Assembly: GCF_011038975.1 (NCBI RefSeq) | Contig: NZ_JAAKEC010000003.1 | Span: 1 to 64,000, forward strand | Direction of reading: 5' to 3' | Source: Adlercreutzia sp. ZJ176 | Lineage (GTDB): Bacteria > Actinomycetota > Coriobacteriia > Coriobacteriales > Eggerthellaceae | Length of the DNA stretch: 64,000 nt | Shown here: positions 5,207-62,793 of the stretch, one piece after another | How the letters are laid out: each line of letters starts with the position of its first letter | How positions within the stretch are numbered: the stretch's first letter is position 1 | Program-made: the position numbers and the translations under genes | Notes under the pieces: model-generated | Told to the model about the DNA's origin: nothing | The model's database searches: none | Seen by the model: only the letters and a program-made list of their open reading frames with translations

Positions 5207-5251
5207 TAATTTCTCCTTGCGACAACTGTTTTTTTATATTCTACTCTAATT

Positions 5252-5269: not shown

Positions 5270-5286
5270 ATTTCGGTAAACATATC

Positions 5287-6141: not shown

Positions 6142-6145
6142 GTTT

Positions 6146-6343: not shown

Positions 6344-6345
6344 AT

Positions 6346-6464: not shown

Positions 6465-6469
6465 CTCGT

Positions 6470-6594: not shown

Positions 6595-6745
6595 TGGGAG
6601 GACAGCATGGCGGGCACTCCGGTTGGGATGGCATGGAGGGAACAACTTGCTGCCGAAATGGCACAAGAAAACTAGCTGGTTCTCAAAGCAGCGCAGGAAG
6701 AGTAGTCGACTGCACAGGATGGCGTAATTCGTGCGAGGTCATGCG

Positions 6746-6822
6746 TGCGTGTCCGCGTCATGATGCGCGGGAGCGGCAAACCCCGTGGCGTTAAAAGCAA
6801 GCGCATCAGCGCTTTACACTTT
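6746..6822 (-). terminator. repeat module with terminator hairpin after vsr
   Basis: This segment matches 23549-23632 over about 75 bp. Read on the minus strand both copies give AAGCGC-N4-GCGCTT then GCTTTTAA, and both sit immediately after the stop codon of a minus-strand gene (vsr here, ackA at the other site). A shared, mobile terminator cassette is the simplest reading. Confidence 0.55.
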
Positions 6823-6834
6823 TCCTCGGGCGCC

Positions 6835-46679: not shown

Positions 46680-48836
46680 TCACAGGTCGAGCGCCTTGCG
46701 CGCGGCGGCCACCGCGTCCCCGTCAGGGTAGAAGTCGGGGCTCACCGCCCCCATGAGCTCGGGCGGCACGCTCTGCAGGTCCCGGATGGAGCTCATGGGC
46801 AGCAGGATCTTCTTCGCGCCGGCGTTGCGCGCCACGCGGAACATCTCCTCGAGCCCGCGCAGCTCGTCCATCGTGCCCGACAGGCGCACGATGCCCGGGA
46901 TGGCCATCGACGCCACCACGGGCCGGTTGCACGCCGCCGAGCACAAGCCGACGAACTCGGCGAGCGAGAGCTCGTCAGAGAGCCCCTTTCCCTGCAGGTC
47001 ATTATAGAAGAGCAGATAGTCCTTCTGCTCGCTGTGCATGCCCGCCGCCACAGACGATCCGCTGCCCTCGAAGCAGTGGAAGGCCGCCTGCATGCTCTCG
47101 TGCACCGTCCGCGCGCGGCCGATGCCCTCCGTCTCGAAGCCGAAGCTGCCGGCCACCGCCTTGTTCTCGAGCTTGTACATGGCGCATTCGCCCTCGAGCG
47201 AGCACCCGATGGCGAACACGTGCCCCGGCTGCAGCGGCCCCTCGGGGACGAGCGTGCCGCCCGACTGCTCGGGCACGCCCACCACCCGCACGCCCATGGG
47301 GTTGTCGGCGTCGACGTAGCCGAGGTTCACGTCGATGAACTCGACGCCTGCCATGATCTTGAGCTGCTCCTTCACGCGGCGCCGCCCCTCGACCGCGTAG
47401 TCGAGCAGCCGCGCGACGTCGTCCTTCCCCATCTTCCCGTCGGGGAACAGAAGCTTCGCCAGCCCCGAGAACGTCTTGCGCACGCCGATCTCGTCGCGCT
47501 TGTTGAAGTCGTTGTTCAACCGGAAGTGCGCGTCGATCAGGTGCGTGAAGTCACGCTTGCGCATCTCGTGGCAGAACTCGCTCAAACAGTCGGTTATGAG
47601 GCCGTAGTGCTCGGTGAGCAGGTCGCTGCGCATCTTGGGGACCTCCCAGCCGGGAAGGTAGCAGTGGATGCGGTCGAAGTACGCGGAGTCGTCGTGGAAC
47701 TCGGGCGGGAACGGCTCGAACAGATGCGTCGTCTTGAGCATGTTGCGCACCGAGTCGTTGATGTTGCCCTCGAGCACGATGGACGCATCGGCGTTGAGCT
47801 GGTCGCGCCCGCGCGCGTAGCTGCCCGAGGCCATGTAGTCCTTCATCACCTGCACGGCGTTCTTGTCCTTGAAGTTCATGCCCGCGACCTCGTCGAACGT
47901 GATGCAGTCCCAATGCCCCACGAGCCCCACGCGGTCGGCGCGCATGCTGTTCATGCGCCCGAACAGGTTGGCCGTGGTGGTCTGCCCGCCCGAGAGCAGG
48001 ATGGAGTGCGGCGACACCTCCTTGTAGAGGTGGCTCTTGCCCGTGCCGCGCGGCCCCAGCTCGCACAGGTTGTAGTTGCGCTCGATGAGCGGCACCATGC
48101 GCGCGAGGAAGTGCAGGCGCTCGCGCTCGGTGAGGGCGTCGGGCTCGTAGCCCGCCGAGCGCAGGATGAGGCTCTCCCACTCCCGGGCGGTGAAGCGCTC
48201 CCGCTCGGCGATGAGAGCGTCCAGGTCAAGGTTGGGCATCTGGATGGGCGTGAGGCTCACCACGTGGAACGGCGAGTCCTCTGGCCCGCGCTTCTTGCCG
48301 GCGGCGGCGCGCCTGCGTGCGGGGGTCGACCCGTCGAGGTCGAACACGTCGGCCAGGGCGTCCTCCTCCTCGTCGCCGATGCGCAGGTACTCGATGCGCA
48401 TGATGCACCAGATGCCGCCCTGCAGGATCTTGGTGTAGTTGCGCACGTACTCGGCGGGCATGACGAACGGCTCGATGGTGAGGTTCGTGAAAGACGCCAC
48501 GTAGATGTCCTTGTACTCGTCGAGGCGCGCCGACACCTTGTCGATGATGGTGTACTGCCCCAGCTCGCGGATCTTCGACTTGATGCGCTCGGACTCGTCG
48601 GGACGCACGTAGTTCTCCGCCAGGATGCGCCTGATGCGCGCCAAGCCCTCCTCGACCGTGTCCGCGTCGTCGGTCGAGCAGTACATGCCAAGCAGGTACT
48701 CCAGCACGAACGTGGGCACGTTGGCCCCGCGCTTCATGAGCGCCGTCAAGTCCTTGCGCACGATCTTGCCTGCGAAGCGCTCCACCACCTTGGCGTCGAG
48801 CTCGTCCGCTGAAAACGTGTTCGCCTCTTGGCTCAT
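46680..48836 (-). CDS. brxL: BREX system Lon-like protein BrxL
   Basis: The 718-residue protein has the BrxL N-terminal domain (DELDAKVVERFAGKIVRKDL), an AAA+ core with the P-loop ELGPRGTGKSHLYKEVSP, and a C-terminal Lon-like domain (VHESMQAAFHCFEGSGSSV and NAGAKKILLPMSS). BrxL is the terminal gene of type 1 BREX and acts with the DNA-modification complex in blocking phage. ATG 48836 follows AAAGGA. It lies 31 bases after pglZ. Confidence 0.95.
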   Translation of the reverse strand: MSQEANTFSADELDAKVVERFAGKIVRKDLTALMKRGANVPTFVLEYLLGMYCSTDDADTVEEGLARIRRILAENYVRPDESERIKSKIRELGQYTIIDKVSARLDEYKDIYVASFTNLTIEPFVMPAEYVRNYTKILQGGIWCIMRIEYLRIGDEEEDALADVFDLDGSTPARRRAAAGKKRGPEDSPFHVVSLTPIQMPNLDLDALIAERERFTAREWESLILRSAGYEPDALTERERLHFLARMVPLIERNYNLCELGPRGTGKSHLYKEVSPHSILLSGGQTTTANLFGRMNSMRADRVGLVGHWDCITFDEVAGMNFKDKNAVQVMKDYMASGSYARGRDQLNADASIVLEGNINDSVRNMLKTTHLFEPFPPEFHDDSAYFDRIHCYLPGWEVPKMRSDLLTEHYGLITDCLSEFCHEMRKRDFTHLIDAHFRLNNDFNKRDEIGVRKTFSGLAKLLFPDGKMGKDDVARLLDYAVEGRRRVKEQLKIMAGVEFIDVNLGYVDADNPMGVRVVGVPEQSGGTLVPEGPLQPGHVFAIGCSLEGECAMYKLENKAVAGSFGFETEGIGRARTVHESMQAAFHCFEGSGSSVAAGMHSEQKDYLLFYNDLQGKGLSDELSLAEFVGLCSAACNRPVVASMAIPGIVRLSGTMDELRGLEEMFRVARNAGAKKILLPMSSIRDLQSVPPELMGAVSPDFYPDGDAVAAARKALDL

Positions 48837-48867
48837 GGCGTGATGTCCTTTCCTTGCGCCCTCTTCG

Positions 48868-51492
48868 CTAGAATCCGAAGTCATCCAGGGGCATGAACGC
48901 GATGTCGACGGAGAACTCCTCTTTCCACGCAACGCGCCCGCCCTCGTGCTCGCGCGCGACCAGATAGCACGGCTCCGCCGGGGCGAACGCCCGCTTGGCG
49001 GAGAGGGCGAAGGCCACCTGCGTGACGCGCTCGAGCTCGCTTGCGCTCGCGCTGTCCGCGTGCACCAGGCGCACGTCGCTGACCTCGTTGCCTGACGCGT
49101 CGGTGAGCACCAGGTCGTAGGCGCGCGGCGCCACCTTGCCCGCCACCGCCTCGGTCTGGAACAGCTCCACGCGGAACAGCGCGCTCGTGATGCGCCGGTT
49201 CGTCGAGACGAGCTGGAGCGTCGTCGGGCGAGTCTCCTGCGCCCCCTTCGCACCTGCGCGCAGGCTGCGGAAGCGGATGACCGGGACGCACAGCTCCTGC
49301 AGGCTCGCGCCGCCGTGCACGTAGCGCTCGCCCGCCCCGGGACGCTTGATGCGCGTGCAGTCGCGCGGGGCGAAGCCGGCGAAGGGGCCGTACGCGCTCA
49401 TGTCGACGCGCGCGAGCACGTCGGAGGTCGCACCGTCGCGCGCCACGGCGAAGCGGCGGCCCTCGAGCACGCTCTCGCCTTCGAGCACGTCGCGGCCCAC
49501 GCGCTCGAAGGCGCGCAGGGGCTTGCGCGTGAAGAGGAAGCCGTGGTCGGCGGTCACCACCACGCGCGTGATGCCCATGCCGCTCACCGCCCGCTTCGCC
49601 AAGGCGCAGACGTCCTCGATCGCGTCGGCGCACGCCTCGAACACCTCGCCTTCCGTGGGAAGCTTCTCGCCGGCGGCGTCGATCTTGTTGTGATACACGT
49701 AGACCACACGCGCCTGCGCCGTCGCCTGCTTGAGGTCGGCCGTCTTCATGCCGAGCACGTCGGGCGCGCGCAGGGCGCAAGCCTGCGGCACGCGCCCGCG
49801 CAGCACCGCCTGGCGCTGCTCGGTTGTGCCGGTGGGCAGGCCGTCGGCGAGCACGCTGCGCGCGCCGGCGTCGAAGGCGAGCGCGGCGTGGGGAAGCAGG
49901 GCCGCCATGCCGAACTCCGTGACGGAGGGGAAGGCCGCCTGCATGGTGTCGAGGCGCGCCTGCCCGCGCATCTGGCGCTCGAGACGGTCCGCCAGCTCGC
50001 ACGCCACCTCGAAGCGCAGCGCGTCGGAGACGATCGCGCACACGCGATGCCCTGCGGAAAGCTCCGGCTCCACCACGTCGGCGAAGAAGCGGCGCTGGTC
50101 GGGCACGTCCTCCACGCACCCGCGCACGGCCCATTGCGAAAGCGCCGCGCGCGTCCAGCACGCCGTGCTCTCGGGCAGAAACCAGCCGTTGTACAGGCGG
50201 TCAGCCCAGTCGGCGAGGGCGCTCGCCTCCTCCTCGAGAAGCGGGCTCGGATCCTTCGCGCTGCGGTTGAGCGCGCAGACGAGCCTCCGGTACGCCGTGT
50301 CCATGGCATGCCAGTCCTCGACGTAGGCGCGCCACGCCTCGTGGGCGCGGGCCAGGTGGAACCCCTGGGTGTGCCTCAGGTAGAACGCCTGCATGTCGGC
50401 GGCGGCCGAGAGCAGGTCGAAGTACGGCTCGACGCACTCGTACCACCCCAGGCAGCGGCGCGCCTGCACGACGGGCCCCACCTCCTCGCAGCGGTGCGCG
50501 CCCTGCGCCAGCGAGCCCATCAGGTCCTGCAGGATGCGCTCGTTCACGCAGGGGAACACCTCGCAGCGCCCGAGGGCCGCAAGCGGAAGCTCGGCGAAGC
50601 GCCGCGGCAGGTTGCAGGCGTCCTCCACCTCGCGGCACGCCTCGTAGAGCGCCGCATATGCCGCCTCGTCGTCGCAGGACATCCAGCCGCGCACCACGTT
50701 GAGGCAGAACTGCGCGCAGGCGGGCGCCAGGTAACGTTCAAGGCCCTTGAGGTGGGCGGGATCCATCGTCGCCGACGAAGCCGTGACCAGCACGTGCGCG
50801 CTGAGGGAGCGGGAGTCGGCCACGTCGCCCGCATATCCGGTCACGTGCTCCACCAGCCGCTCGAGCGCCGCGCGGGCACCGAACTTCTCCACGCCGCAAA
50901 GCGCGCCCTCCCCCGCGCGAAGCCTGAGCAGAAGCGCCCGCACGATGGCCTCAGGCGACACCTCGGCGCTGCCGAGCAGCACGGCCAGCACGCCGCAGCG
51001 GACCTCAGCCGAGGTCCGCGGTGCGCCCACGCGGCTTTTGAAGCGCGCCGCGCGGTCCTTCGCCGCGAAGAAGCCCTTGAGCTCAGAGAGCGCCGCGCGC
51101 ACCTCGTCGGTGTCGGCGGCGTCGAGCTGGTCGACGAGCAGCGAGAGGTAGTCAGCCTGGAAGCTCTCGGCGTACAGCTCCACGTCGGCGAGCCAGTCGC
51201 CCTCGAGGCTGCCGCGGGCGCGACGGCGGTACACCAGGACGTCGCTCTCCACGTCGTCGCGCGCGAGGAGCTTCTTCACCGCGAAGAGCCCGCCTGGCTC
51301 GGCGCGCACGAGGCGCACCAGACGCGGGAGCGGGGGCGCATCCGCCCCGCCGAAGCCCGCGGCCTCGAGCTTCGCGAACACGTCGGCGAACTCGCCCTCC
51401 GCGTCGTGCCAGATGACGATGCGGCGGCGCGCGCAGTCGGGCAGCGGAGCGGCAAAGCGCCGTGCGAGCTGGTCTTCTACGTCGATATGCAT
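48868..51492 (-). CDS. pglZ: BREX alkaline phosphatase-like protein PglZ
   Basis: The 874-residue protein is the defining BREX component. The C-terminal PglZ domain is recognised by VCAIVSDALRFEVACELA, FPSVTEFGMAALLPH, VYVYHNKIDAAGE and VVVTADHGFLFTRK, the alkaline-phosphatase-fold metal ligands. The N-terminal half is helical. The ATG follows GAAGGACC, 11 bases after the pglX C-terminal ORF, so the two are coupled. Confidence 0.96.
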   Translation of the reverse strand: MHIDVEDQLARRFAAPLPDCARRRIVIWHDAEGEFADVFAKLEAAGFGGADAPPLPRLVRLVRAEPGGLFAVKKLLARDDVESDVLVYRRRARGSLEGDWLADVELYAESFQADYLSLLVDQLDAADTDEVRAALSELKGFFAAKDRAARFKSRVGAPRTSAEVRCGVLAVLLGSAEVSPEAIVRALLLRLRAGEGALCGVEKFGARAALERLVEHVTGYAGDVADSRSLSAHVLVTASSATMDPAHLKGLERYLAPACAQFCLNVVRGWMSCDDEAAYAALYEACREVEDACNLPRRFAELPLAALGRCEVFPCVNERILQDLMGSLAQGAHRCEEVGPVVQARRCLGWYECVEPYFDLLSAAADMQAFYLRHTQGFHLARAHEAWRAYVEDWHAMDTAYRRLVCALNRSAKDPSPLLEEEASALADWADRLYNGWFLPESTACWTRAALSQWAVRGCVEDVPDQRRFFADVVEPELSAGHRVCAIVSDALRFEVACELADRLERQMRGQARLDTMQAAFPSVTEFGMAALLPHAALAFDAGARSVLADGLPTGTTEQRQAVLRGRVPQACALRAPDVLGMKTADLKQATAQARVVYVYHNKIDAAGEKLPTEGEVFEACADAIEDVCALAKRAVSGMGITRVVVTADHGFLFTRKPLRAFERVGRDVLEGESVLEGRRFAVARDGATSDVLARVDMSAYGPFAGFAPRDCTRIKRPGAGERYVHGGASLQELCVPVIRFRSLRAGAKGAQETRPTTLQLVSTNRRITSALFRVELFQTEAVAGKVAPRAYDLVLTDASGNEVSDVRLVHADSASASELERVTQVAFALSAKRAFAPAEPCYLVAREHEGGRVAWKEEFSVDIAFMPLDDFGF

Positions 51493-51503: not shown

Positions 51504-52472
51504 CTACTTCACCCGAGACAGCACGTCGGCGAACTTGGCGTAGTTCACCTTCACGCCGTCGTCGAGGTCGATCTCGATCATCTGGTCCGCCAGGTGGTGC
51601 ACCTTCTCCTCGAACGCGCGCGTCTCGGAAAGCTGCGCGCGCAGCTTCGTCAGCTGCTTCTGCAGCTGCACCTTCTGCGACTTCTCGGCCGCGTCGAGCG
51701 CGTCGGCGAGGTGGTCGATCTGTGCCTCGTAGCGCGCCTGCATGCCGTGGACGTACTCCGTGCGCAGGCGCGCGAGCAGGTCAGGCTGGTAGCGGTGCAG
51801 GTAGACGAGCGCCTTGAAGCCGTTCTTCTTGCCCGAGTCGAACTGCCAGTAGATCGGGCGCTTCTTGTAGGTCTGGCAGTGGTCCTTGAAGAACTCCTTG
51901 AGGAAGTAGCTGCGTATCACCGCACGCGGCGAGCCCGTGCCGCCGAGCGCGTCAGCCACGAAGGCCAGGTTCTCCTCGAGCGTGTCGGCCCCGTAGGCCG
52001 CGCGCACGAACTCGACGAAGCGCCCCACGATATCGTCGTCGAAGTAGTCGTCGTCCGTGATGGGGATGACGTTGTCGGCGTCGGGCAGGAAGGTGACCTG
52101 CGCGGGATCGGGCATCTTGGCCAGGTAGTCGTCGAGCGTGTCGCCCTGGTTGGCCAGCACCAGGCCTTCGACGTCGAGCGAGTAGCGGCCGAACATGCAG
52201 CCCACGGCGTAGCTGATGAGCGAGGTGATCTCGTCGCGCTTGGTGCGGACGTACTTGTTGCCCCTGAACGACGCGGGGATCTCCTCGGGCGTGTCGAACA
52301 CGCGCGCCACCGACACGTACTTGTCCTCCACCTCGATAGGCACCTCGCCCACCATGTCGTAGATCTCCGCGAAGATGCGGTTGAGCTCCTCCTCGTTGGC
52401 CTTGAGCTGGTCGAATCGGGCGTTGGCCTCGGCCTTCCACGCCTCGTACTTGTCGGCGATGAGCGTAGCCAT
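51504..52472 (-). CDS. BREX methyltransferase PglX, separated C-terminal part
   Basis: The 322-residue product matches the C-terminal quarter of type 1 PglX: LKANEEELNRIFAEIYDM, SYAVGCMFGRYSLDVEGLV, YFDDDIVGRFVEFV, IYWQFDSGKKNGFKALVYLH and a terminal coiled coil. Full-length PglX joins this directly after the ETSWDFKRHPL region, which here ends the upstream ORF 2.4 kb away. This part has its own start with GGAGGG at ideal spacing, so it can be made as a separate chain. Together the two parts total 1177 residues, the usual size of the whole protein. Confidence 0.9.
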   Translation of the reverse strand: MATLIADKYEAWKAEANARFDQLKANEEELNRIFAEIYDMVGEVPIEVEDKYVSVARVFDTPEEIPASFRGNKYVRTKRDEITSLISYAVGCMFGRYSLDVEGLVLANQGDTLDDYLAKMPDPAQVTFLPDADNVIPITDDDYFDDDIVGRFVEFVRAAYGADTLEENLAFVADALGGTGSPRAVIRSYFLKEFFKDHCQTYKKRPIYWQFDSGKKNGFKALVYLHRYQPDLLARLRTEYVHGMQARYEAQIDHLADALDAAEKSQKVQLQKQLTKLRAQLSETRAFEEKVHHLADQMIEIDLDDGVKVNYAKFADVLSRVK

Positions 52473-52530
52473 CAGGCGGCCCTCCTTTCGTTGCGAGCGG
52501 CTTTATAGGGTACAAATGTTCTTGTGTTTT

Positions 52531-52539
52531 TGGTATAAT
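52531..52539 (+). promoter_or_regulatory. extended -10 promoter for the 41-residue peptide
   Basis: TGG-TATAAT at 52531-52539 is a consensus extended -10. Transcription would start near 52546, giving a leader of about 65 bases before the peptide start. No good -35 is needed or seen. Confidence 0.7.
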
Positions 52540-52609
52540 GGAAGCCGGTCAACGGAGTAAGTCCCGTGTGCTGGCAGCGCCTTCTTCTCAGGAAGGAGGT
52601 GAGGTGCCT

Positions 52610-52735
52610 ATGGAGTTGATTATTCAGATTATCGGACTTGCGACGGCAGTTGTGAGCCTGGTGTCGACGATAGTTAAAGCCATATCCGTAGCACGGGGCG
52701 AGCGCCCCAAACTGAAGGGCGGTCGTAAGCGCTAG
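52610..52735 (+). CDS. 41-residue membrane peptide, candidate type I toxin
   Basis: The peptide has one hydrophobic helix (IIQIIGLATAVVSLV, residues 4-24) and a basic tail ending GGRKR, the layout of Fst/TxpA/holin-like type I toxins. A near-perfect GGAAGGAGGTG precedes the ATG. The 3' end overlaps a perfect 12-bp hairpin, and a convergent extended -10 promoter 70 bases downstream could drive an antisense RNA. It lies in the insert that divides pglX, on the strand opposite to the BREX operon. An upstream in-frame ATG falls within the promoter and is rejected. Confidence 0.65.
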   Translation: MELIIQIIGLATAVVSLVSTIVKAISVARGERPKLKGGRKR

Positions 52736-52751
52736 TTGACTTACGACCGCC
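52718..52751. terminator. shared 12-bp hairpin at the end of the peptide gene
   Basis: GGCGGTCGTAAG (52718-52729) pairs perfectly with CTTACGACCGCC (52740-52751), with the stop codon in the loop. Neither strand has a long U-tract, so termination may be imperfect. Confidence 0.6.
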
Positions 52752-52799
52752 TGGAAAACCAACGGCGCTGCCCGCATCGGGAAACACGGGCATCCGCTG
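52718..52799 (-). ncRNA. candidate antisense RNA to the peptide mRNA
   Basis: TGC-TATAAT on the minus strand (TATAAT at 52805-52810) is an extended -10 element pointing at the peptide gene. The predicted RNA of about 80 bases would hold a TGCCCG/CGGGCA stem (52769-52792) and then the 12-bp hairpin at 52718-52751, which overlaps the last codons of the peptide. This is the size and form of type I antitoxin RNAs, but no direct evidence of transcription exists. Confidence 0.45.
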
Positions 52800-52918
52800 G
52801 CCATATTATAGCAGGAATCGCACACCTGATAGCCATCGGCAACGTAAAGAATACGTGTGTTTTCCTGGGAACCGTTGGAAATGCAAGTGCGCTCGCTCAA
52901 CTTGCAAAATACAGCATC

Positions 52919-52947
52919 TTGCAAGCGACAGCAGCGCGTGGTATAAG
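52919..52947 (+). promoter_or_regulatory. promoter of the DUF3800-associated RNA
   Basis: TTGCAA (52919-52924) and TATAAG (52942-52947) with a 17-base spacer and a TGG extension. The start would fall at about 52954, the first base of the first repeat. Confidence 0.75.
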
Positions 52948-52952
52948 GAAGG

Positions 52953-53180
52953 TGGTCCTCCCGCAAGGGTCGGCCTCCAAGAGCCGGGGGGTGCCCCCCG
53001 GCAACCGGCAGCGGCTTCTTCGGAAGATTGCTCGTCCGGGTCGAAAGCGAGAGCTTACGACAAAGATTCGGAGTCCTCGAGAGAGGGGCACCGACGATCG
53101 GGGACAAGGCCCCGGTACCCAATTGGTCCTCCCGCAAGGGTCGGCCTCCAAGAGCCGGGGGATGTCCCCCGGCATTTTTA
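52953..53180 (+). ncRNA. structured repeat RNA upstream of the DUF3800 gene
   Basis: Two 51-bp units, 52953-53003 and 53124-53174, begin TGGTCCTCCCGCAAGGG and differ at only two positions. Those two positions face each other in the GC-rich hairpin (G-C in unit 1, A-T in unit 2), a compensatory change. Each unit also has a CCC-GCAA-GGG tetraloop hairpin. Unit 2 is followed by TTTTT, making an intrinsic terminator. The 120 bases between fold into CTTC-TTCG-GAAG and GGGG...CCCC stems. Promoter, repeats, terminator, then a protein gene is the order of type III toxin-antitoxin loci; Rfam also lists several DUF3800-associated RNA motifs. Confidence 0.75.
53154..53180 (+). terminator. intrinsic terminator ending the repeat RNA
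   Basis: GCCGGGGGATGTCCCCCGGC followed by ATTTTTA. It lies about 100 bases before the DUF3800 start, so read-through would control expression of that gene. Confidence 0.85.
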
Positions 53181-53281
53181 TATTGCTTCACCGAGTGAAC
53201 CAAAAAGAAGAGCACAGCATATTCAGCTTCATTTCGCCTCTCAGCACAAGACGCGAGCGGCAAGTCGGAAGGAGCGAGAAA

Positions 53282-53953
53282 ATGAGGGAGGTCTCCGTCT
53301 TCGTCGATGAATCGGGCGATTTCGGCGAAACATCCCGCTTCTACTTGATCACGCTTGTCGTCCACGATCAATCCATCGACATCATCAAAAGCATTTCCCG
53401 TTACGAGGCATCGCTGCAAAGTCGCAACCTGCCGAACATACCCATGCACTTCAGCCCGCTGATCAACGGAAACAACGGCTACAGGAAGCTGAGCCTTGGT
53501 CAGAGGAAGTTGCTGCTTTCCGCCTTCCAAGTGTTCGCCATGCACTTGCCCGTGCGCTACAAAACGTTCGCGCACCGTAAAAATCGCTTCCGAAGCTCCG
53601 CGCAACTCATGCAAAAGCTCAAGCAGGAACTCACTCTGTTTCTTTTCGACAATCTTGATTTCTTTCAGTCGTTCGACGTCATCAAAATCTATTACGACAA
53701 CGGACAAGAGGAAATATCCAAAGCGCTGCATAGGGCCGTGGAGTACGCGCTTTCCAAGAATGCCCTCATCTACAAGGACGCGTCGCCTCGAGACTATCGG
53801 CCTTTCCAACTCGCAGACTTCATCTGCGGAATCGAACTGACCGCCTTGAAGTTCGACCAGCAATGCCAAACGTCCACCGACGAGCTGTTCTTCGGTGGTT
53901 CCGTGAGTTTCAAGAAAAACTATTTGAAGAAGCTGAGACGAAAAAGTCTGTAG
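53282..53953 (+). CDS. DUF3800 protein
   Basis: The 223-residue protein starts VSVFVDESGDFG, the acidic motif of DUF3800, which has an RNase H-like fold; the C-terminal RPFQLADFICGIE carries another family Asp. The acidic residues suggest a nuclease or nuclease-like role. ATG 53282 follows GGAAGGAG by six bases; the frame extends upstream but that part is the structured RNA. It lies in the pglX insert, antisense to the BREX operon, and is convergent with the HEPN gene. Composition is close to 50 percent GC, lower than the backbone. Confidence 0.85.
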   Translation: MREVSVFVDESGDFGETSRFYLITLVVHDQSIDIIKSISRYEASLQSRNLPNIPMHFSPLINGNNGYRKLSLGQRKLLLSAFQVFAMHLPVRYKTFAHRKNRFRSSAQLMQKLKQELTLFLFDNLDFFQSFDVIKIYYDNGQEEISKALHRAVEYALSKNALIYKDASPRDYRPFQLADFICGIELTALKFDQQCQTSTDELFFGGSVSFKKNYLKKLRRKSL

Positions 53954-53970
53954 GGCTATGGAGACAGCGC

Positions 53971-54062
53971 GGAAGCCGGGCCCCGCGAACACGCGGGTAC
54001 TCCGGCTTCCACTTCCTAACCCCCGCAGGGGCGGCATCTGTGAAACAGAGTAGCATGCCGCA
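53971..54062. other. two nested hairpins between the convergent DUF3800 and HEPN genes
   Basis: GGAAGCCGG (53971-53979) pairs with CCGGCTTCC (54002-54010), with CCGCG/CGCGG inside. Then GCGGCAT pairs with ATGCCGC with CTGT/ACAG inside. Neither is followed by a U-tract, so they look like structured RNA or stabilising 3' ends rather than standard terminators. Confidence 0.5.
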
Positions 54063-54114
54063 AAAGCAAGCTGAACAGCCGAGGAAGTAAAGCTCAAATT
54101 ATTGCCAGACTTTA

Positions 54115-54828
54115 TCATTCTTGCACACTGTCAATCACATTTGGCTGATCAATGGATTCGACTAAAATCCTGTACCAGGCTTCCAGCGTGTCTAGTTTCA
54201 CTATCATCCGCATACGAATCTCAAGCAAAGAACCTTCTGGCTTTTCTTCTCCTTCATATTCAACCTTTTGTGGTTTATTCCCATCTTCAAGGAAAATATA
54301 TGCATCTGTTCCACGAAGCAGCACCGCTATTCGACCATGAGCAAAGGCGTTTCTGATGTGTCTGCACACACTTTCGATGCACGAATCCTCTTCGCCGTTT
54401 TCCTTTCTTCCGATAAACAGTGCAGCGCGTTCGTCGAGAGAATCAAAAGCATCTGCACCATTGCTCGACAAATCAAGGTTCGCGAGATTCAGCTTCATTC
54501 CTTTACGCAAATACACAAACTCAAATTTTGTGCAATCCAGACCGAATGGGAGTAGAAATTGTTCATCAAAAAATGCTCTGTTCTGAGTACGCGACCCCTT
54601 CTTTGGATCGCAGGATGAGCAGAACATATTAATGCACGACGGATTAGCCAAACAGCTTATTTCTTTAATCGGAGTTCGCAGCAAGAACCAACATGCAAGT
54701 TTTTCCACACGTCTATAGACTTCACCAATTCCGTCAAGTGGATACTTCTCAAGTACAGGGAACTTGCTCTTCTGCACAATAACTAAATCGCTTGCAGGGG
54801 TCTTTTTTCTTTTTTGCTTATCAGTCAT
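54115..54828 (-). CDS. HEPN-motif protein inserted in the BREX operon
   Basis: The 237-residue protein has RNAFAH at residues 159-164, the R-x4-H motif of HEPN ribonucleases, in the context CRHIRNAFAHGRI typical of the family. A CSSC pair lies near 70-73. HEPN proteins are frequent RNase toxins and abortive-infection effectors. The ATG begins six bases after the stop of the pglX N-terminal ORF with no separate binding site, so it is probably translated by coupling and made with BREX. AT-rich composition, unlike brxC and pglZ. No antitoxin partner such as MNT is adjacent. Confidence 0.7.
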   Translation of the reverse strand: MTDKQKRKKTPASDLVIVQKSKFPVLEKYPLDGIGEVYRRVEKLACWFLLRTPIKEISCLANPSCINMFCSSCDPKKGSRTQNRAFFDEQFLLPFGLDCTKFEFVYLRKGMKLNLANLDLSSNGADAFDSLDERAALFIGRKENGEEDSCIESVCRHIRNAFAHGRIAVLLRGTDAYIFLEDGNKPQKVEYEGEEKPEGSLLEIRMRMIVKLDTLEAWYRILVESIDQPNVIDSVQE

Positions 54829-54834
54829 ACAGCA

Positions 54835-57402
54835 TCACACCAGCGGATGACGTTTGAAATCCCAGGAGGTTTCAAACGAATCGTAATCAGATTTGGAAAG
54901 ATCAACGGAATAAGAAGCAGCCACCAGAACGTCTTCAGATTCAGTGATCTTCATATTGAAAGGGTATTGAGAGATCTGTCCAGGCTGAAAATCTAAGGTT
55001 GCCGACATAAACCTAGCCACATGCATACCAACTGCCGAATTAAGAAAGGCCATGGACGCCAATAAATTTGGACGTCTCCCGAACGCAGCCGGGCCCGTCA
55101 TATCAAACAAATACCCTTGTTCTTTGTAGCGAACTGCCAGAACACCACTCGACACGCGAGACCAAGATACCATTGGCTGAAAGTTTAGAGAGTCTTTTAC
55201 AAGGACAGCGCCCGCTTTTCTTAACTCAACGCCACCCTTTCCCCAGTTAACCACATACTCGTTATTTCCATACCATTTCTTGAATTGGCCGCCTTTGTTG
55301 TATGGAAGCCATATTATGAAATCCGAATAGGGATAATCGCTCGGAGCACCTCTTCTATCCGAAGACACTTCATGCCATAAGCGCAAGAATCTATCATTAT
55401 TGCAGGTAGCCATCCCTAAATGCGTTTCAGTATTCGAACCGAGAGATGGATTTTCGAACGCCTTCAACATGGCGCCACTGGCCCAGTAGGCTATGGGGGT
55501 GCCGGGGATTTTTGAGAAGGAGCTGGCGCTTCGGCGGTAGAACCAGCCGCAGTCTGGGTTTTCGATGGCCTCCCTTATCGCCTGCTCTTTCGCCTGCTCG
55601 TTCTCGAAGTCAACAAGGCGCAGGTACGTTGCTGCAGCATCGGTGTGAGCACCCGAATAGACCGTCGCCGTTGTCGCGACGACCTCCCCGCCAATCGCGC
55701 TGAATGCGCGCGTGCCGAGATGCGCCATCGAGACGATCGAGCAACTTGCGAGAAGCTTCCCGCGCATGGCCTCGAAGCTGCCGAGGAACATCCAGCTTTG
55801 CATGGTGACCATGGCGGAGTAGCCGCTGGCGTCCGCCAGAGTGAAACCTCGCTCGACGAAGCAGGTGCAGAGGTCGCGCTTGCTGTCGGGGTAGCTCTTC
55901 TTCGTCCAGCTCGCGAGCCACTTGTTCATGTTGGACGAGCCCATGTAGGGCGGATTGGCCACGACGACGTCGTAGGTTCTTGCGAGAGGCGCGCAGTTCT
56001 GCTGCATCTGGCGCAGCTTGTCGCGAGCGGCGTCGGCGAACAGGTTGCCGGCTGCGGCCTGCTCATCCAAGACGCGCAGCGCTTCGTCAAGCGCCGCCAA
56101 GTCTGCGGCATCGGGCGCGAACAGGCTGCCGCACTCGTCGGCGTGCGCCATGGCGTCCAGCAACGCCGTGCGCTTTCCCAGCTCAGAGACGAGCTGTAGC
56201 TCGCCTTCGTCAAGCTCAGCCCTTCGCAGGCACGTGATGCGCGGCCGCACTCCCCTGCGCAGGAAGCGGCTGTCGTACTCGCACGCCTTCATGGTAAGCG
56301 CGAAGCTCGCCATGGCCGCCGCGCGCGGGTCGATCTCCATGCCCGACAGGTTGTTCTCCAGCACGAGGCGCGGGATGTCGCGACGCACGTAGCCCGCCTC
56401 CTCGTAGATGCTCGCCAGCAAGTCAAACGCATACACCAGGATGTGGCCCGAACCGCACGCCGGGTCAACCACGGTGATCTCCTCGGGCGAGGACACGCGC
56501 CGAAACGCCACGCGGGCATCATCCTCGTTCGCGATGTAGTACGGCATGCGCCCAGCGAGCTGCGAGCTCGGGGTGTTCTGCATCCACAAGCGCCCGAGCG
56601 AGTTCTCCACCAGGTAGCGCACGATCCATTCGGGCGTGAACAGCTGCGTGGCCGGCGCGATGGCGTCGCGCTCCGCCTTCCTGCCCTTCTTGAAGCCGGC
56701 GAACACCTCGTCCTTGCGCTCCGACACGTAGTACTGGTACATCCAGCCGACGATGCGCACGCCCTCGCCCGCATCTTCCCCCTCGCCTTCGCGCCAGTCG
56801 GACTCGGGGATGTCGCTCACCAGGTGCGCGAGCACGCCGTCGTGGTGCAGGAGCCCCGCGGGCAGCAGCAGCTCCATGGCGCTTCCCACCGGCTCGAACA
56901 CGTCGGGCATGCACCGGGACAGCTCGTTGCACTGCGCGAGGAACAGCAGACGGAACAGCGCCTCGTCGTCGCCTGAGCCCATGGCCTCCACCACGCGATC
57001 GGCGTCGAGCCCCTCGATGCGCACGTCAAGCGCGCGTGTGAGCACCTGCGGGGAAAACGAGCCGTCCTCGCCCGACAGGATGCGCACGCGGCGCGGAATG
57101 CGGTCGTTCAGCTCCATGAAGCGGATGGCCGCCATGCGGTTGAACCACGTGTAAGCCGCCTCCTCCATGAGGCGCTCGAAGCTGTCCGCGTAGCCCGCGC
57201 CCGCGGCCGGCCCCAGCTTGTCGATGAGCAGGCCGCGCCGGCGCTTCTCGGCACCTGAGAGCACGCGGCCCTCTATGACGTCGGCGTCCTTCGGGTCGTG
57301 CCCGTCCTCGCGGATGCCCCAGTAAAGCGCCCGCTGCCTCACCTGGCGCAGAAGCTCGGCGCGCGCCCAGGTGCAGAAGTTCTTGACGGCGGTGTCGTTC
57401 AT
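54835..57402 (-). CDS. pglX: BREX adenine-specific DNA methyltransferase PglX, N-terminal part
   Basis: The 855-residue chain contains the N-terminal helical domain, SAM motif I (VVDPACGSGHILVYAFDLL, about residue 312), the catalytic NPPY motif (VVANPPYMGSSNMNKW, about residue 483) and the target-recognition region. It ends at SFETSWDFKRHPLV, a point that is internal in ordinary 1200-residue PglX; the missing part is the ORF at 51504-52472. PglX methylates host DNA at an asymmetric adenine site. From about residue 650 on, codon use turns AT-rich, suggesting replacement of the recognition region. AGGAGGGGGAG precedes ATG. Confidence 0.93.
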   Translation of the reverse strand: MNDTAVKNFCTWARAELLRQVRQRALYWGIREDGHDPKDADVIEGRVLSGAEKRRRGLLIDKLGPAAGAGYADSFERLMEEAAYTWFNRMAAIRFMELNDRIPRRVRILSGEDGSFSPQVLTRALDVRIEGLDADRVVEAMGSGDDEALFRLLFLAQCNELSRCMPDVFEPVGSAMELLLPAGLLHHDGVLAHLVSDIPESDWREGEGEDAGEGVRIVGWMYQYYVSERKDEVFAGFKKGRKAERDAIAPATQLFTPEWIVRYLVENSLGRLWMQNTPSSQLAGRMPYYIANEDDARVAFRRVSSPEEITVVDPACGSGHILVYAFDLLASIYEEAGYVRRDIPRLVLENNLSGMEIDPRAAAMASFALTMKACEYDSRFLRRGVRPRITCLRRAELDEGELQLVSELGKRTALLDAMAHADECGSLFAPDAADLAALDEALRVLDEQAAAGNLFADAARDKLRQMQQNCAPLARTYDVVVANPPYMGSSNMNKWLASWTKKSYPDSKRDLCTCFVERGFTLADASGYSAMVTMQSWMFLGSFEAMRGKLLASCSIVSMAHLGTRAFSAIGGEVVATTATVYSGAHTDAAATYLRLVDFENEQAKEQAIREAIENPDCGWFYRRSASSFSKIPGTPIAYWASGAMLKAFENPSLGSNTETHLGMATCNNDRFLRLWHEVSSDRRGAPSDYPYSDFIIWLPYNKGGQFKKWYGNNEYVVNWGKGGVELRKAGAVLVKDSLNFQPMVSWSRVSSGVLAVRYKEQGYLFDMTGPAAFGRRPNLLASMAFLNSAVGMHVARFMSATLDFQPGQISQYPFNMKITESEDVLVAASYSVDLSKSDYDSFETSWDFKRHPLV

Positions 57403-57414
57403 GATCTCCCCCTC

Positions 57415-60400
57415 CTAGCGCACGCTCACGGAATCGGCGTCGCGCAGGGCCTCCATGAGCTTGGCGCGGATGGCCTCCACGTACGCGTCCACGTCGTCCT
57501 CGCTGGTCAGGCGCTTGACCGGGCACAGTTCGGCGCGCGATACCGTCTTGGGCTTGCGCGGGCGCGGCGTCGGCTCCTTCGCTTCGCGCTCCTGCGGCTC
57601 GACCAGCCGGTTGTCAACGCTTCGCAGCTGCGCGATTCGCCACGCCTCAAGCTGCGACTTCAACGCGTCGAGGTCCTTGCAGAGCCGCGCAGCATGAACC
57701 TCGGACTCAAGGCGCTCCGCGCGCTCGCCCACGTCGGCGACGAGCGCGGAGGTTGCGGTGCCCACGGGGTCCGCCTCCTGCGCGTACTTCCTCACCTCGT
57801 CGCACACGGCGCCGACGAGCGAGAGCACGTCGCCGCGCTTGGCGCGGACGGCCTCGTCGTGCGCGCTTGAGATCGCCCGGGTGAGCTCGTTGAGCTTCGG
57901 AATGCGCTCATAGGGCGCGTCCATGCCCAAGATCTCGTCGAGGGCGCTGGCCGCTTCCTGCGCCGCGGCGTCGCCCGCCAAGTACACGGACTCCTGGCGC
58001 GCAAGCTCGCGCGCCGCGCGCGCCTCGTCGAACAGGCGCTGCTGGTTCGGGAAGAAGCCGCTCACCTTCTCCATGTCCTCCTGCCAGTCGAGCAGGTCGT
58101 CCTCCTTGGCGGTGAACTCCTTGAGCAGCGCCTTCTCGTCGGACGCGCACCCCAGGATCTCCTGCGCGAGACGGGCGCCCTGGGTCACCACGTCCTTGCC
58201 AGGGTACGGGGCGCGCGCGTACTCCTTCGCCAGAAGCCCGCGGCAGCCCTCCTCCTGATCCTGCAGCGCCTCGCGCACCGCACGCGTGAGCGAGTCGACG
58301 TCCTCAGGTGCCGCCTTGTGCGTGAGGTCTGACAGCAGGCCTCGCGCCTGGCTCACCAGCGCCGCCGAGGGGAGCTCGCGCTTCTGCACCGTCGCCTGGT
58401 CGGCCTCGCGTTCACGCAGGACCTTCAGCAGCCTGCGCTGGTCGGACAGGTCGCGCGGGTCGAGCAGCTTCCCCGCCTCCCGCACCACGGCCTTCTGGTC
58501 CGCCACCAGGCGCGCCACCGTCGCCGCGATGTCGAGCTCGCGCCAGCCGAAGGGCGCCGCGGCGAACTTGCGGTGGATGTCGCCCATGCTCGTGGGCTGG
58601 TGCGTGCGGTGCTGCAGCTCCAGGAACTTCGCCACCTCCTCCAAGGCGCGCTCGTTGCCGCCGCCCATGCCGGCAAGCCCCGGCTGCGCCTCGCCGCGCA
58701 AGGCCCGGATGAGGTCCTCGTCGCCCAAGGCGGGCGTGACAACGTAGTCGGCCTTCGTGAACGTGGAGGTCACCAGCTCGTCGAGCACGCCTTCCATGAC
58801 CTGCTTCGCGGTGGTCGCGCGCGGGCGCACCGCGTGGCCGGCAACCGCGCAGCGCGCGTGCAGCAGCGCGTCCTCCAGCATGGCGCGCGCCTCCTTCTCG
58901 CTCGCGCGCGCCTGGCTCTGCTTGCCCCTGATGATGCTCTGCCGGCCCTCGGGCAGCTGCGCCACGTTGAGGCGCTTGACGTACTTGTCCACCTTGGCCG
59001 CGTACGAGAGCGCCTCGAAGTAGTCGGACTCGGTTGACAACACCACGAGCGCCTGACCCGCCTGCGCCGCCGACCTGAGCGCCAGCTGCCCATCGTCGGC
59101 CTGCGCGAGCGCGTGGGCCACCGTGATCACGTTGAGCTTCATGCCGTTGGAGGTCGGCCCATAGGGGCTATCGTCCACGAGGCGGTCGAAGGGGAAGTCG
59201 TTGGCGCCCTTGCGGTGCTTGCGGCTGTTGCAGATGTCCTCGAACAGGATGCGCTTCACGCGCTCGAGCACGAGTGCCACGTCCACCTCGGTGTCGTTGA
59301 TCTCGCGCGTGACGTCCTGCTCCTCGTCCGTGAGGAAGCTGTATGCGTCGCCGTTGCGCGCCACGTAGTTCTCGCGCACCAAGCGCTCGAGCGACAGCTT
59401 CACCTGCTCGCGCAGGGAGATCTTGTCGGCGTTCACGTCGTCGACCATGAGGATGGCGATGTTGCCCACCGTGGGCTTCACGTCGTTGACGTAGCGGATG
59501 AGGTAGAGGGTCTTGAGCACCTCGACGTCCTGCAGCTGCAGTCCGTGCGACTCCTCCGCCGCGCGCTGGCAGCGGTCGATGACCTGGCGGATGCCGTGCT
59601 CGAGGAAGGTGGTGATGGTGTCGTAGAAGCGCCAGAACGGCACGAGCGCCGCGGTGTCGCGGTCCTGGACCTTCTGCGCGGCCTCCTGGAAGCCCGACAG
59701 CATGCTGCGCTCGCCGCCCGAGAGGTGCTTGCCCGCGTTGCCGTGCTTGCGGATCTCGGCCAGCACGTTGGGCATGAGCTTGAACTGGTAGCCCACGAAC
59801 GGGTAGCTCTCCGCGAAGTCGGCCGCACTGGCGTATCCCCGCAGGTCGCTTTGGCTCTCGTCGAACGTGAACAGGTTCTTCAGCACGGCCGACAGGCCCG
59901 CGTAGTCAGCCTCGAGCTGCAGGCGCGCGGCGTCGGTCTTCTCCAGCACGCGGCGCCTGATCACCTCGTCAACGCTGCTCGACGAGAGCGACAGGCGCGT
60001 GTTGAAGCGCCCCTGGATCTTCGAGAAGTCGTTGCCCGCCACGCGGGTCACCTCGTCGATGGCCTCCTGGCTGGTGACCATCACCCACACGCGGCCTCTG
60101 CACTTCGTGCCGAGCTCCTCCACGATGGTCTGCAGGTTCAGCATGAGGTTCACGTCCGAGCCGATGAACTGCCCCACCTCGTCGGCCATGAACAGCAGGC
60201 GGAACTTACCGCCGCACGCCGCGGCGCGCGCGTCCACGTAGGCACGCACCTCGTCGGTGAGCTGGTCAACGCTGATGGCGTCGCTCTCCGTGCCGTCGAA
60301 CCAGTGCTGCGCGGCCTCGCGGCTCATGCCCAGGACCTCCACGAGCGTCTCCACCACGTCGTCCTCGAAGAACACGTAGTCGCTGCGCGCCTCAAGCCAG

Positions 60401-60981
60401 CTTGCGCCGTTTATGCGTTCGAACGCAGCGCGGAACTCGCCCGTCTTGCGTGCGCGCTCCACGAACTGCTCGAGGCGCGCGAGCTTCAAGTCCTCGCCGT
60501 AGAAGCCGCGGTGCTCGTAGAACACGCGCGCGAACGAGCGCAGAAGCGCCGTCTTGGCCTCCGCGCCCTCCTTCCACTGGCCGCCCTTGTTGTCGATGTT
60601 GAACAGGATGGCCTCGGTGGGCACCGAGCATGCGCGCCTCATCTGGCTGTACACCAGCGGGTCGGCGACCTTGCCGTCGAAGTAGTCGATGGCCTGCCTG
60701 CCGCCCACCTCCTGGTTCGACAGCAGATACGAGAGCATCTTGAGGAAGTGCGACTTGCCGCTGCCGAAAAAGCCCGAGATCCACACGCCGATCTTGTCGG
60801 TCGGCACGTCGATGGCGCGCGTGTAGCTCTCGAAGAAGTCTGCGAAGTGGCGCTGGAGCTCGCGCGTGATGACGTACTCGGAAAGCTCCTGCCGCGTGGC
60901 TTCCTCGTCGGTTTGCGCGACCTTGACGACGCCGTTGATCGAGCGGTTGATGTCTTTGGAGAAGAGGGATTTAACCTGCAT
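57415..60981 (-). CDS. brxC: BREX ATPase BrxC (PglY-like)
   Basis: The 1188-residue protein begins with the DUF499-like/BrxC region and a P-loop GFFGSGKS at residues 70-77; later LLFMADEVGQFIG and VMVTSQEAIDEV fit Walker B and sensor segments, and a long coiled-coil C-terminal half follows. BrxC is an AAA+ ATPase of the core BREX complex. AAGGAG precedes ATG. It lies 9 bases after brxB and 12 before pglX. Confidence 0.95.
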   Translation of the reverse strand: MQVKSLFSKDINRSINGVVKVAQTDEEATRQELSEYVITRELQRHFADFFESYTRAIDVPTDKIGVWISGFFGSGKSHFLKMLSYLLSNQEVGGRQAIDYFDGKVADPLVYSQMRRACSVPTEAILFNIDNKGGQWKEGAEAKTALLRSFARVFYEHRGFYGEDLKLARLEQFVERARKTGEFRAAFERINGASWLEARSDYVFFEDDVVETLVEVLGMSREAAQHWFDGTESDAISVDQLTDEVRAYVDARAAACGGKFRLLFMADEVGQFIGSDVNLMLNLQTIVEELGTKCRGRVWVMVTSQEAIDEVTRVAGNDFSKIQGRFNTRLSLSSSSVDEVIRRRVLEKTDAARLQLEADYAGLSAVLKNLFTFDESQSDLRGYASAADFAESYPFVGYQFKLMPNVLAEIRKHGNAGKHLSGGERSMLSGFQEAAQKVQDRDTAALVPFWRFYDTITTFLEHGIRQVIDRCQRAAEESHGLQLQDVEVLKTLYLIRYVNDVKPTVGNIAILMVDDVNADKISLREQVKLSLERLVRENYVARNGDAYSFLTDEEQDVTREINDTEVDVALVLERVKRILFEDICNSRKHRKGANDFPFDRLVDDSPYGPTSNGMKLNVITVAHALAQADDGQLALRSAAQAGQALVVLSTESDYFEALSYAAKVDKYVKRLNVAQLPEGRQSIIRGKQSQARASEKEARAMLEDALLHARCAVAGHAVRPRATTAKQVMEGVLDELVTSTFTKADYVVTPALGDEDLIRALRGEAQPGLAGMGGGNERALEEVAKFLELQHRTHQPTSMGDIHRKFAAAPFGWRELDIAATVARLVADQKAVVREAGKLLDPRDLSDQRRLLKVLREREADQATVQKRELPSAALVSQARGLLSDLTHKAAPEDVDSLTRAVREALQDQEEGCRGLLAKEYARAPYPGKDVVTQGARLAQEILGCASDEKALLKEFTAKEDDLLDWQEDMEKVSGFFPNQQRLFDEARAARELARQESVYLAGDAAAQEAASALDEILGMDAPYERIPKLNELTRAISSAHDEAVRAKRGDVLSLVGAVCDEVRKYAQEADPVGTATSALVADVGERAERLESEVHAARLCKDLDALKSQLEAWRIAQLRSVDNRLVEPQEREAKEPTPRPRKPKTVSRAELCPVKRLTSEDDVDAYVEAIRAKLMEALRDADSVSVR

Positions 60982-60990: not shown

Positions 60991-61665
60991 TTACACCAGG
61001 TCGAAGGCCCGATAGTAGTTTCCGTCCGTCAGCTTGTTGAAGAGCACGAGCGACTGCCCGTCAAACGACCCGGGGTACATCAGCACCACCGGCATGTCCT
61101 CGAAGAGGTGCTGGATGTTGTCGAGCAGCACGTGCGCCCGCAGGAACGGGTACACCTCCCCCACCCCGGTGATGAGCAGCACGTCGCCGGGCTGGTGGTC
61201 GGGGTAGTTGACCTCGCTCACGAACGCCTCGGGCGTCGCGGTTTTCTGCAGCTGCTTGAGCAGGCCCTCCTGCCCGCGCTTCTGCTCCTGCTTGGGTATG
61301 GCGTCGAGGATGCGCTTCCTTCGGCAGATCTCGAGCAGCGCATCGTAGAGGTTGCGCTCGACGATGCGGCAGGGAAGGATGCCCGCGTCCGCCTCGTGCT
61401 TGAGGCGGACCACGAAAGCCCGCATCTGCAGCTCGAGGGCGGGGTCGTAGCAGAAGGTGAAGATGCCCACCTCGTTGCCGAGGCCGCGATTGCCCAGGAA
61501 GTCAGGCTGGGCGAGCCGCTCGCGCAGGACGGCGCAGCGGTGATCGAAGTCCGCCTGCGCCTTCTCGCGGCGCGTACGACAGGACGCGGGCTCAGAAGAG
61601 CGGCACGACGTGGATGAGCCTGCGGACGGACGGCGCGTGCCAGACACTTGACCTGCCATGCTCAC
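60991..61665 (-). CDS. brxB: BREX protein BrxB (DUF1788)
   Basis: The 224-residue protein has the DUF1788 features EVGIFTFCYDPALELQMRAFV and DVLLITGVGEVYPFLRAH with VVLMYPGSFDGQSL near the end. The first 35 residues are Ser/Arg-rich and poorly conserved. GTG 61665 overlaps the brxA stop; an ATG two codons later is equally possible. Confidence 0.92.
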   Translation of the reverse strand: MSMAGQVSGTRRPSAGSSTSCRSSEPASCRTRREKAQADFDHRCAVLRERLAQPDFLGNRGLGNEVGIFTFCYDPALELQMRAFVVRLKHEADAGILPCRIVERNLYDALLEICRRKRILDAIPKQEQKRGQEGLLKQLQKTATPEAFVSEVNYPDHQPGDVLLITGVGEVYPFLRAHVLLDNIQHLFEDMPVVLMYPGSFDGQSLVLFNKLTDGNYYRAFDLV

Positions 61666-62257
61666 GCCCCTTCCGTGCAGTTGAAGGCGGGCAGCAGGCA
61701 GGCGTCGCCGTTGGCGACCATGACGCGCTTGAGGTCAGGGTCGAGCAGGATGGGCTCGAGGGCGTGGTAGCGCACCTGGGAGAGCATGCCCGCCTGGAGC
61801 AGGCTGTTCGCCAGCGTGCTCGCGACGCGCTGCGCGGTCGACTCCGACAGGCGCGCCCCCGGCTCGCGCTCAGCCTGGTAGCGAGCGAGAAACGCGCTCA
61901 TGTCAGCGCGCGTGAAGCGGTAGTCCAGCGTGCGGTAGCGCACGGCCACCTCGTCGAGCAGCAGGCGGTAGACGATGTCGAATACGCGCGCCATGCCGTA
62001 GAGGTTGGCCTGCGCGGCCTGGTCGTGCGCGCCACGCGCCACGAGCTCGACGAGTTCGTCCGACTGCAACGCGTCGAGCCGCCGCGCGCAGGCGCGTGCG
62101 ATGCGCGGAACGGAGTTGACGGTGGGATATTGGAAGAGGTTCTCGCCCTTGGCGAGGGACACGATCTCGGGAGTGCTCTTGCCTTGCAGCCGCAGCTCGG
62201 CCACAAGCCTCATCTCCCTTAGGAGGAAATGCTCTCTACTGAGAGACCCCCCCCCAT
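61662..62257 (-). CDS. brxA: BREX protein BrxA (DUF1819), start interrupted by a G9 tract
   Basis: The frame from 62246 downward encodes a typical BrxA of about 197 residues: SREHFLLREMRLVAELRLQG, ENLFQYPTVNSVPRIARACA, and a winged-helix C-terminus. BrxA is a small DNA-binding BREX component. The only well-placed start is ATG 62257, whose G begins a run of nine G. With nine, the ATG frame reads MGGGLSVESISS and stops; with ten (or seven) it enters the brxA frame. As sequenced the gene is therefore out of frame with its start, unless an internal ATG at 62213 is used, which would remove the first conserved helix. Confidence 0.85.
62247..62255 (-). repeat. nine-base poly-G tract at the start of brxA
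   Basis: Nine C residues on the plus strand, reading as ATGGGGGGGGGT on the coding strand. Homopolymer tracts of this length at the start of a gene are classic slipped-strand phase-variation sites. PglX of the Streptomyces Pgl system is known to vary through a G tract. Confidence 0.85.
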
Positions 62258-62321
62258 GACTGTTTCTTCGTTTAGCACCACAGCACCACTCCGCACGTGT
62301 TGAAGATGAGCATTCCTCACA

Positions 62322-62327
62322 ATTATA
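62322..62327 (-). promoter_or_regulatory. -10 element of the BREX operon promoter
   Basis: TATAAT on the minus strand, 65 bases before ATG 62257. It excludes the upstream in-frame ATG at 62348 as the start of brxA. The -35 region is weak. Confidence 0.6.
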
Positions 62328-62793
62328 GCGCACGAATCGGTTCCCCACCTAACAGCCTCCTGCTCAGTCTCGCCCGCGAAACCAACTCGCGTTCGCTCGA
62401 TGCCCAAAGCAGCTTGACGGCGCAAGACGCCCCCTGCCCGCAGGCAGACTGACGCTACAGCCGAGAAGAAGCTGCGATTTGAACGTTTAGTTTTAGGTAG
62501 CATAACCCGAGAAACGCGAATAATGTTGCGCAACAAATCGTGGCGCACGCAGGCACATCGCGCTGAATCAAGGGCTTGTTTCAGCGCTGTTCACGGCAAC
62601 GATAAGCGCAAAGAGGGGTCCTGGCTTCGCAAAAGAACGCGTATGCTTGCTTGGCGACTTTGGCGCGAAGGTCGCCTTCGCCCCGCGCGCCTCTTTCGCC
62701 CCGCGCGCTGCCTTCGCCTTGCGCGCCTCTTTCGCCCCGCGCGCCTCTTTCGCCCCGCGCGCCGGCTGCCTTCGCATCTTGCCCCTTCGCCGC
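62328..62793. other. gene-free region upstream of BREX with GC-rich tandem repeat
   Basis: No gene is supported. A 109-residue frame on the minus strand runs into the poly-G tract but lacks a binding site. Degenerate 18-bp units related to CTTTCGCCCCGCGCGCCT repeat five times at about 62673-62764, just past the stop of the DUF523 fusion gene. Confidence 0.5.

Follow-up and report, generated by a model that had tools for sequence, protein, structure and literature searches.

A probable two-chain PglX and an exchangeable cargo slot in type 1 BREX operons of Adlercreutzia and its relatives

Several described systems bear on the type 1 BREX (bacteriophage exclusion) operon discussed here, which lies within the first 64,000 nucleotides (hereafter the window, read on the forward strand) of contig NZ_JAAKEC010000003.1 of Adlercreutzia sp. 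ZJ176 and whose pglX gene is divided between two open reading frames (ORFs), pglXN and pglXC, with further genes between them. In type I restriction, split or half HsdS subunits are broken at the spacer helices by which recognition modules are normally connected. The type 1 BREX systems of Escherichia coli HS and Salmonella D23580 possess a single-chain PglX, also named BrxX. The Salmonella enzyme contains a target-recognition domain (residues 662-849), two spacer helices (850-960) and a C-terminal region (961-1225) (PMC11341690), and the metal ligands of E. coli BrxX are D997, D999, D1012 and Y1113 (PMC11842806). PrrC has its gene within a type IC restriction locus and is switched on by phage inhibition of that system (PMC12707154), and HEPN, Schlafen, PARIS and OLD proteins figure as auxiliary or backup effectors of BREX in the covered sections of a further study (PMC12839542).

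The window operon has the full gene set and the gene order of the single-chain systems. However, in place of one polypeptide of about 1,200 residues, as in other type 1 BREX PglX, it encodes ORFs of 855 and 322 residues, which are most likely broken between the spacer helices and are separated by a cargo slot that is always filled. In contrast to split or half HsdS, the break parts the methyltransferase-recognition chain from the conserved C-terminal domain. With PrrC and the EcoprrI type IC operon the locus shares a suspected HEPN ribonuclease (RNase) gene, here predicted, nested within the operon for the modification step of a DNA-marking defence, but the window gene sits within a split methyltransferase gene and the slot takes many unrelated effectors. 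Suicide-type nucleases within BREX loci are shared with the covered sections of PMC12839542, whose main text does not use the word “split” and whose covered sections describe neither a conserved slot within pglX nor the turnover of such a slot. No published description of the split or of the slot was found in a search that did not cover subscription papers, supplements and the original BREX survey, and the window PglX is regarded as a split variant of the canonical single-chain enzyme.

Both ORFs lie on the minus strand. pglXN (54835..57402) codes for the N-terminal domain, the methyltransferase domain, the target-recognition domain and the first spacer helix, and its C-terminal residues are SFETSWDFKRHPLV followed by a stop (at another length of rendering, ETSWDFKRHPLV-stop). 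pglXC (51504..52472), which begins with MATLIADKYEAWKAEANARFDQLKANEEELNRIF, codes for the second spacer helix and a C-terminal domain with the metal-site residues. The two fill one PglX profile end to end and without overlap: pglXN covers positions 1-869 and pglXC 877-1170 of the 1174 positions of PADLOC PDLC02521, or 1-899 and 906-1209 of the 1210 positions of NCBIfam BREX_1_MTaseX. Both the two ORFs of the original prediction and its statement that these segments are contiguous in ordinary PglX are thus upheld, and relatives with a fused gene read through in frame. The insert of 2,362 bp is also as tidy as had been described, with six base pairs between the pglXN stop (54835) and the next ORF (54828) and a Shine-Dalgarno sequence, AAAGGAGGG (52480..52488, minus strand), before the start of pglXC. 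As likewise foreseen, a Pfam search of three proteins of the insert detected neither transposase nor integrase, and no terminal repeats or target duplication were found at the junction. The genome has no spare full-length pglX, as searches return one pglXN and one pglXC.

Several features mark the C part as a working protein. Among closely related genomes, the ratio of non-synonymous to synonymous substitution rates (dN/dS) of pglXC is 0.03-0.17, the same range as for brxC and pglZ of these genomes, and the C part is therefore under purifying selection; the nearest relatives of the window lie too far away for its own value to be estimated directly. In most loci a ribosome-binding site stands 5' of pglXC. 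Modelled alone, pglXC reaches a predicted local distance difference test (pLDDT) score of 92.4, and the model, which opens with a helix of 33 residues, superposes on the C-terminal domain of E. coli and Salmonella BrxX/PglX (8c45/9ewz) with a template-modelling (TM) score of 0.81-0.90 over the query. By alignment, with the correspondence counted by hand, the metal ligands of E. coli BrxX become D131, D133, D146 and Y240 of pglXC, which are invariant or nearly so in 23 homologues. On the other side of the split, the S-adenosylmethionine motif DPACGSG and the NPPY motif are retained in the methyltransferase part, and the catalytic motifs are kept in complete N parts. The split point corresponds to residues ~885-890 of Salmonella PglX, within the spacer helices, and judging from the sequences the break most likely lies in the turn between the two long helices. 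Sequence and model evidence thus make it very probable that this PglX is a functional two-chain enzyme. The original prediction had favoured a functional split PglX with cargo over inactivation, a view that is strengthened by these dN/dS values, the kept motifs and metal residues, the intact model of the C-terminal domain and the recurrence of the split in three families.

This recurrence emerged from a search for the C part in 397 genomes of the same order, the Coriobacteriales. Roughly 35 of the 397, in families f1, f2 and f4, carry it as a separate ORF, mostly of ~320-370 codons and of 68-80% identity, while in other genomes of the order N and C parts form one ORF and the identity is mostly near 50%. 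The fused relatives keep an open frame across the junction, where the linker is 0-15 residues long (78 in one). Comparison of loci (hereafter L numbers) places the order N-cargo-C, split at the same residue, in at least 27 relatives from three families; counts out of 28 below refer to the 27 complete split relatives plus the window. The comparison with related genomes that the original prediction had called for thus yields the same junction with different cargo in 27 relatives. Its description of a pglX split by a 2.4-kb nested module needs correction: the split is of old date and does not depend on the HEPN/DUF3800 module of the window, for which the slot has many alternatives. In a tree of C parts, split and permuted loci group together and fused forms fall outside or basal, with mixed support, which makes a single origin of the split likely. 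The presence of the same split in ~27 other genomes and in the finished Collinsella aerofaciens replicon NZ_OY725717.1 excludes an assembly error.

A phylum-wide sample contained no standalone C part outside the order. Relatives on viral contigs are mostly fused, with one split. The latter, L099 (IMGVR_UViG_3300034684_000336, 3940-7283), is a short low-GC contig from a viral database with an FRG-domain gene in the slot, an apparently truncated N part and IS21-like genes downstream; the arrangement may therefore extend beyond this order. In a further group of loci (L061, L062, L064, L065, L070 and also L063) the order is permuted to brxC-pglXC-pglXN, pglXC standing 12-17 bp before pglXN in five of them and, in all but one case, no gene intervening. 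Two of these (L062 and L063) carry extra inverted copies of the target-recognition domain downstream of pglXN, which by their sequence likely serve specificity switching through inversion.

In the split relatives the interval between pglXN and pglXC measures 722-6,887 bp, against medians of 29-57 bp for other BREX junctions. Elsewhere in the same operons, junctions longer than 500 bp are seen once in 25 between brxC and pglXN (an apparent gap caused by an IS21 element) and in 3 of 23 cases between pglXC and pglZ. No empty slot occurs among split loci of N-C order. The first slot gene starts 0-45 bp past the pglXN stop in nearly all loci, and the slot is probably cotranscribed after pglXN. Just over half of the slots (15/28) contain a divergent HEPN-motif protein, which is encoded by the first slot gene in 14 loci and lies further in at L041. 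RiboL-PSP HEPN and SIR2 proteins, both above Pfam cut-offs, occupy 2/28 slots each. Larger additions comprise SNF2/DrmD-like helicases and a pair of AAA and DUF2357 genes. Behind the HEPN gene of L058 stands a nucleotidyltransferase gene of MNT type in the opposite orientation, a pairing that recalls the HEPN/MNT type of toxin-antitoxin system. One slot protein of 1,128 residues (L035, 9834-13220) combines RNA polymerase alpha-CTD and sigma-70 region 4 domains in an unusual architecture. From these comparisons, the gap can be read with strong confidence as a permanent slot for exchangeable cargo, and the joint claim of split plus slot is held with considerable assurance.

How the slot is refilled can be followed within one genus, where an identity of 91-100% over about the first 480 residues, the methyltransferase parts, gives way to mosaics of recognition domains. 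Three pairs of loci (L036/L038, L053/L054 and L045/L046) have the same recognition domain and different cargo, whereas L038 and L054 have the same cargo (94.6% DNA identity) and different recognition domains. Within this genus, these pairs reject the idea that cargo travels jointly with the target-recognition domain. Homology runs as far as the stop codon of pglXN and sets in again at the start ATG of pglXC, and the cargo is therefore replaced as a unit. The exchange probably proceeds by recombination in the flanking coding sequence; no recombinase was seen in the slots examined. In the window, the recognition domain and the insert have a G+C content of 43-51% against 64-72% around them (methyltransferase part 66.4%, target-recognition end of pglXN 45.8%, HEPN gene 42.9%, DUF3800 gene 50.9%, pglXC 64.4%), and were therefore acquired by transfer.

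The first cargo gene of the window (54115..54828, minus strand) encodes a protein of 237 residues with the motif RNAFAH at residues 159-164. Within its family, R-N-x2-A-H (R159, N160, A163 and H164) is invariant in 15 divergent members, most of which are 11-25% and one about 50% identical to the window protein. The motif conforms to the R-phi-x4-6-H pattern of HEPN proteins, at the short end of its spacing range (R-x4-H). Eight of the 15 members match the Pfam HEPN family pEK499_p136 (PF18736) below the cut-off, the best at 1.2e-4, and two match Cas13e weakly. An AlphaFold model of the window protein had no significant fold match in PDB or BFVD, and hmmsearch with the HEPN alignment found nothing among PDB sequences. 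On its sequence the protein is a putative RNase. Pfam found no PrrC-like ABC-ATPase domain in it; it is therefore distinct from PrrC, whose mode of action it could nevertheless share. A relative with 51% identity in L034 (6232-8684) lies outside BREX and overlaps the end of a 586-residue ORF, with which it possibly forms a two-gene system.

The second cargo gene, convergent with the first, encodes a DUF3800 protein of 223 residues (53282..53953, plus strand; Pfam PF12686, 6e-8). DUF3800 proteins are RNase H-like, with an upstream structured RNA, and are associated with non-coding RNA (PMC10910872). Such a gene is present in 12/28 slots (the window and 11 other complete split loci), divergent from pglXC. 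It is preceded by a conserved leader of promoter, hairpin and terminator (52953-53281 in the window), with some covariation in the first hairpin. The proximal copy of this structured leader with its intrinsic terminator is at 53124..53174 and the second copy at 52953..53003, both on the plus strand. The same leader occurs in L002, L037, L039, L043, L044, L048-L051, L056, L059, L067 and L073, and is duplicated in the window and in L059. In contrast to known pairs of DUF3800 and non-coding RNA, it has no Rfam match, stands in a BREX slot and is accompanied by LexA-like boxes in several relatives. These boxes, GAACNNNNGTTC, stand at fixed positions -61/-35 upstream of pglXC in the DUF3800 slots of L037, L049, L050 and L056, and over all slots 19 LexA-like sites within one mismatch were observed against about 3 expected. 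The lexA promoter of the window's own genome bears three boxes of the same kind. The box of the window itself, GTACAAATGTTC (52510..52521, between the DUF3800 module and pglXC), is weak, with one mismatch. SOS control of DUF3800-carrying slots is thus plausible in the relatives from their sequences.

The insert also includes a hydrophobic ORF of 41 residues resembling a type I toxin (52610..52735, plus strand), within a conserved element that has homologues in the slots of L060 (4689-4811 and 10348-10470) and L035, in L003 and elsewhere in the same genome. In L060 two direct copies of 305 bp flank the AAA/DUF2357 cargo, and such direct repeats are a possible route of slot growth.

The remainder of the operon, all on the minus strand, is that of a complete type 1 BREX in the order brxA-B-C-pglX-pglZ-brxL, with six PADLOC profiles matched in one locus: brxA (61662..62348, 2.4e-32), brxB (60991..61665, 5e-53), brxC (57415..60981, E=0 over its full length), pglZ (48868..51492, 1.9e-200) and brxL (46680..48860, 5' end approximate, 2.6e-265).

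For the function of the arrangement, the following mechanism can be proposed. The two chains would most likely reassociate by pairing their antiparallel spacer helices, and the slot between their genes is usually led by a gene of toxic-effector type. A HEPN-type cargo would be a backup RNase kept quiet by the intact BREX/PglX complex or by another cellular partner; phage inhibition of BREX would free it and infection would be aborted, as with PrrC in the EcoprrI operon. Ocr, a DNA mimic that inhibits BREX, attaches to PglX at its recognition and C-terminal domains (PMC11842806), and a HEPN protein silenced by the intact PglX complex would fit this kind of inhibition. By analogy, then, HEPN-type cargo may be a suicide effector backing up BREX, a tentative idea to which we give rather less than an even chance. 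In a broader and more doubtful version, split PglX would be a DNA-marking sensor and a lock on any slot effector, be it HEPN, SIR2 or another, and a BREX-inhibiting phage would trigger the effector. Several points weigh against these proposals. About 9 of the 28 slots lack a recognised toxic domain or a clear first gene; the HEPN assignment consists of the R-x4-H motif and sub-threshold profile matches, with no significant fold match; and no antitoxin or guard partner for the HEPN-motif protein was identified in the window. Moreover, pglXC may depend on its own promoter in loci with an opposite-strand DUF3800 gene, and the general occurrence of HEPN genes linked to BREX had been described before, in the covered sections of PMC12839542.

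A guard function is about as likely as the alternative that the slot is a safe landing site for addiction modules. In the latter case the cargo would be selfish or stabilising passengers of toxin-antitoxin type with no mechanistic link to PglX, a reading that falls somewhat short of an even chance. The HEPN and MNT-type pair of L058 agrees with it, as do the HEPN relative outside BREX and the self-contained character of the 41-residue type I toxin-like ORF and of the DUF3800 gene with its own promoter and leader. However, the first gene follows the pglXN stop so closely in nearly all loci that it is apparently tied to pglX expression, and one site is used repeatedly while the other junctions stay tight. 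Alternatively, the split might ease the exchange of target-recognition domains, and thereby specificity switching, with cargo merely accumulating behind. Near-identical methyltransferase parts with mosaic recognition domains, together with the inverted extra copies in permuted loci, are in its favour, but it leaves the never-empty N-C slots and the enrichment of effector-type first genes unexplained, and recognition domain and cargo move independently; we consider it less likely than not, though far from negligible. That the slot is never empty in N-C loci might also suggest a cargo protein acting as a third structural subunit, bridging the PglX chains or setting their activity. Yet unrelated cargo (HEPN, SIR2, FRG, HTH-like) stands beside methyltransferase domains of 92-100% identity, and permuted loci do with no intervening gene in all but one case, so that this is very improbable. 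Least credible of all is a recent interruption of pglX by a mobile module in a BREX system that is being lost. The low G+C content of the insert and of the target-recognition domain, which were hence transferred in, would agree with it, and a genuine disruption exists in a relative, where an IS21 element (istA/istB-like) lies inside pglXN of L058 (7413-9685). However, the same split is found in three families with different inserts and never with an empty slot, the C ORF is under purifying selection with start, ribosome-binding site and motifs intact, and no transposase or target-site scar was found.

A two-chain PglX also has consequences for the annotation of these operons. NCBIfam sets the cut-off of its PglX model at 500 bits, which pglXC, with 400 bits, does not reach, and in the RefSeq record of NZ_OY725717.1 pglXN is named “PglX” while the cargo and pglXC are “hypothetical protein”, probably because of this cut-off; annotation pipelines thus overlook pglXC. 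For the family, the arrangement means that PglX can probably be encoded as two chains split in the spacer helices, which bears on the role of its conserved, unexplained C-terminal domain and on whether this domain can act in trans. The interval between pglXN and pglXC offers a defined place in which to seek new anti-phage effectors, and whether BREX has built-in guards like PrrC becomes a directly testable question.

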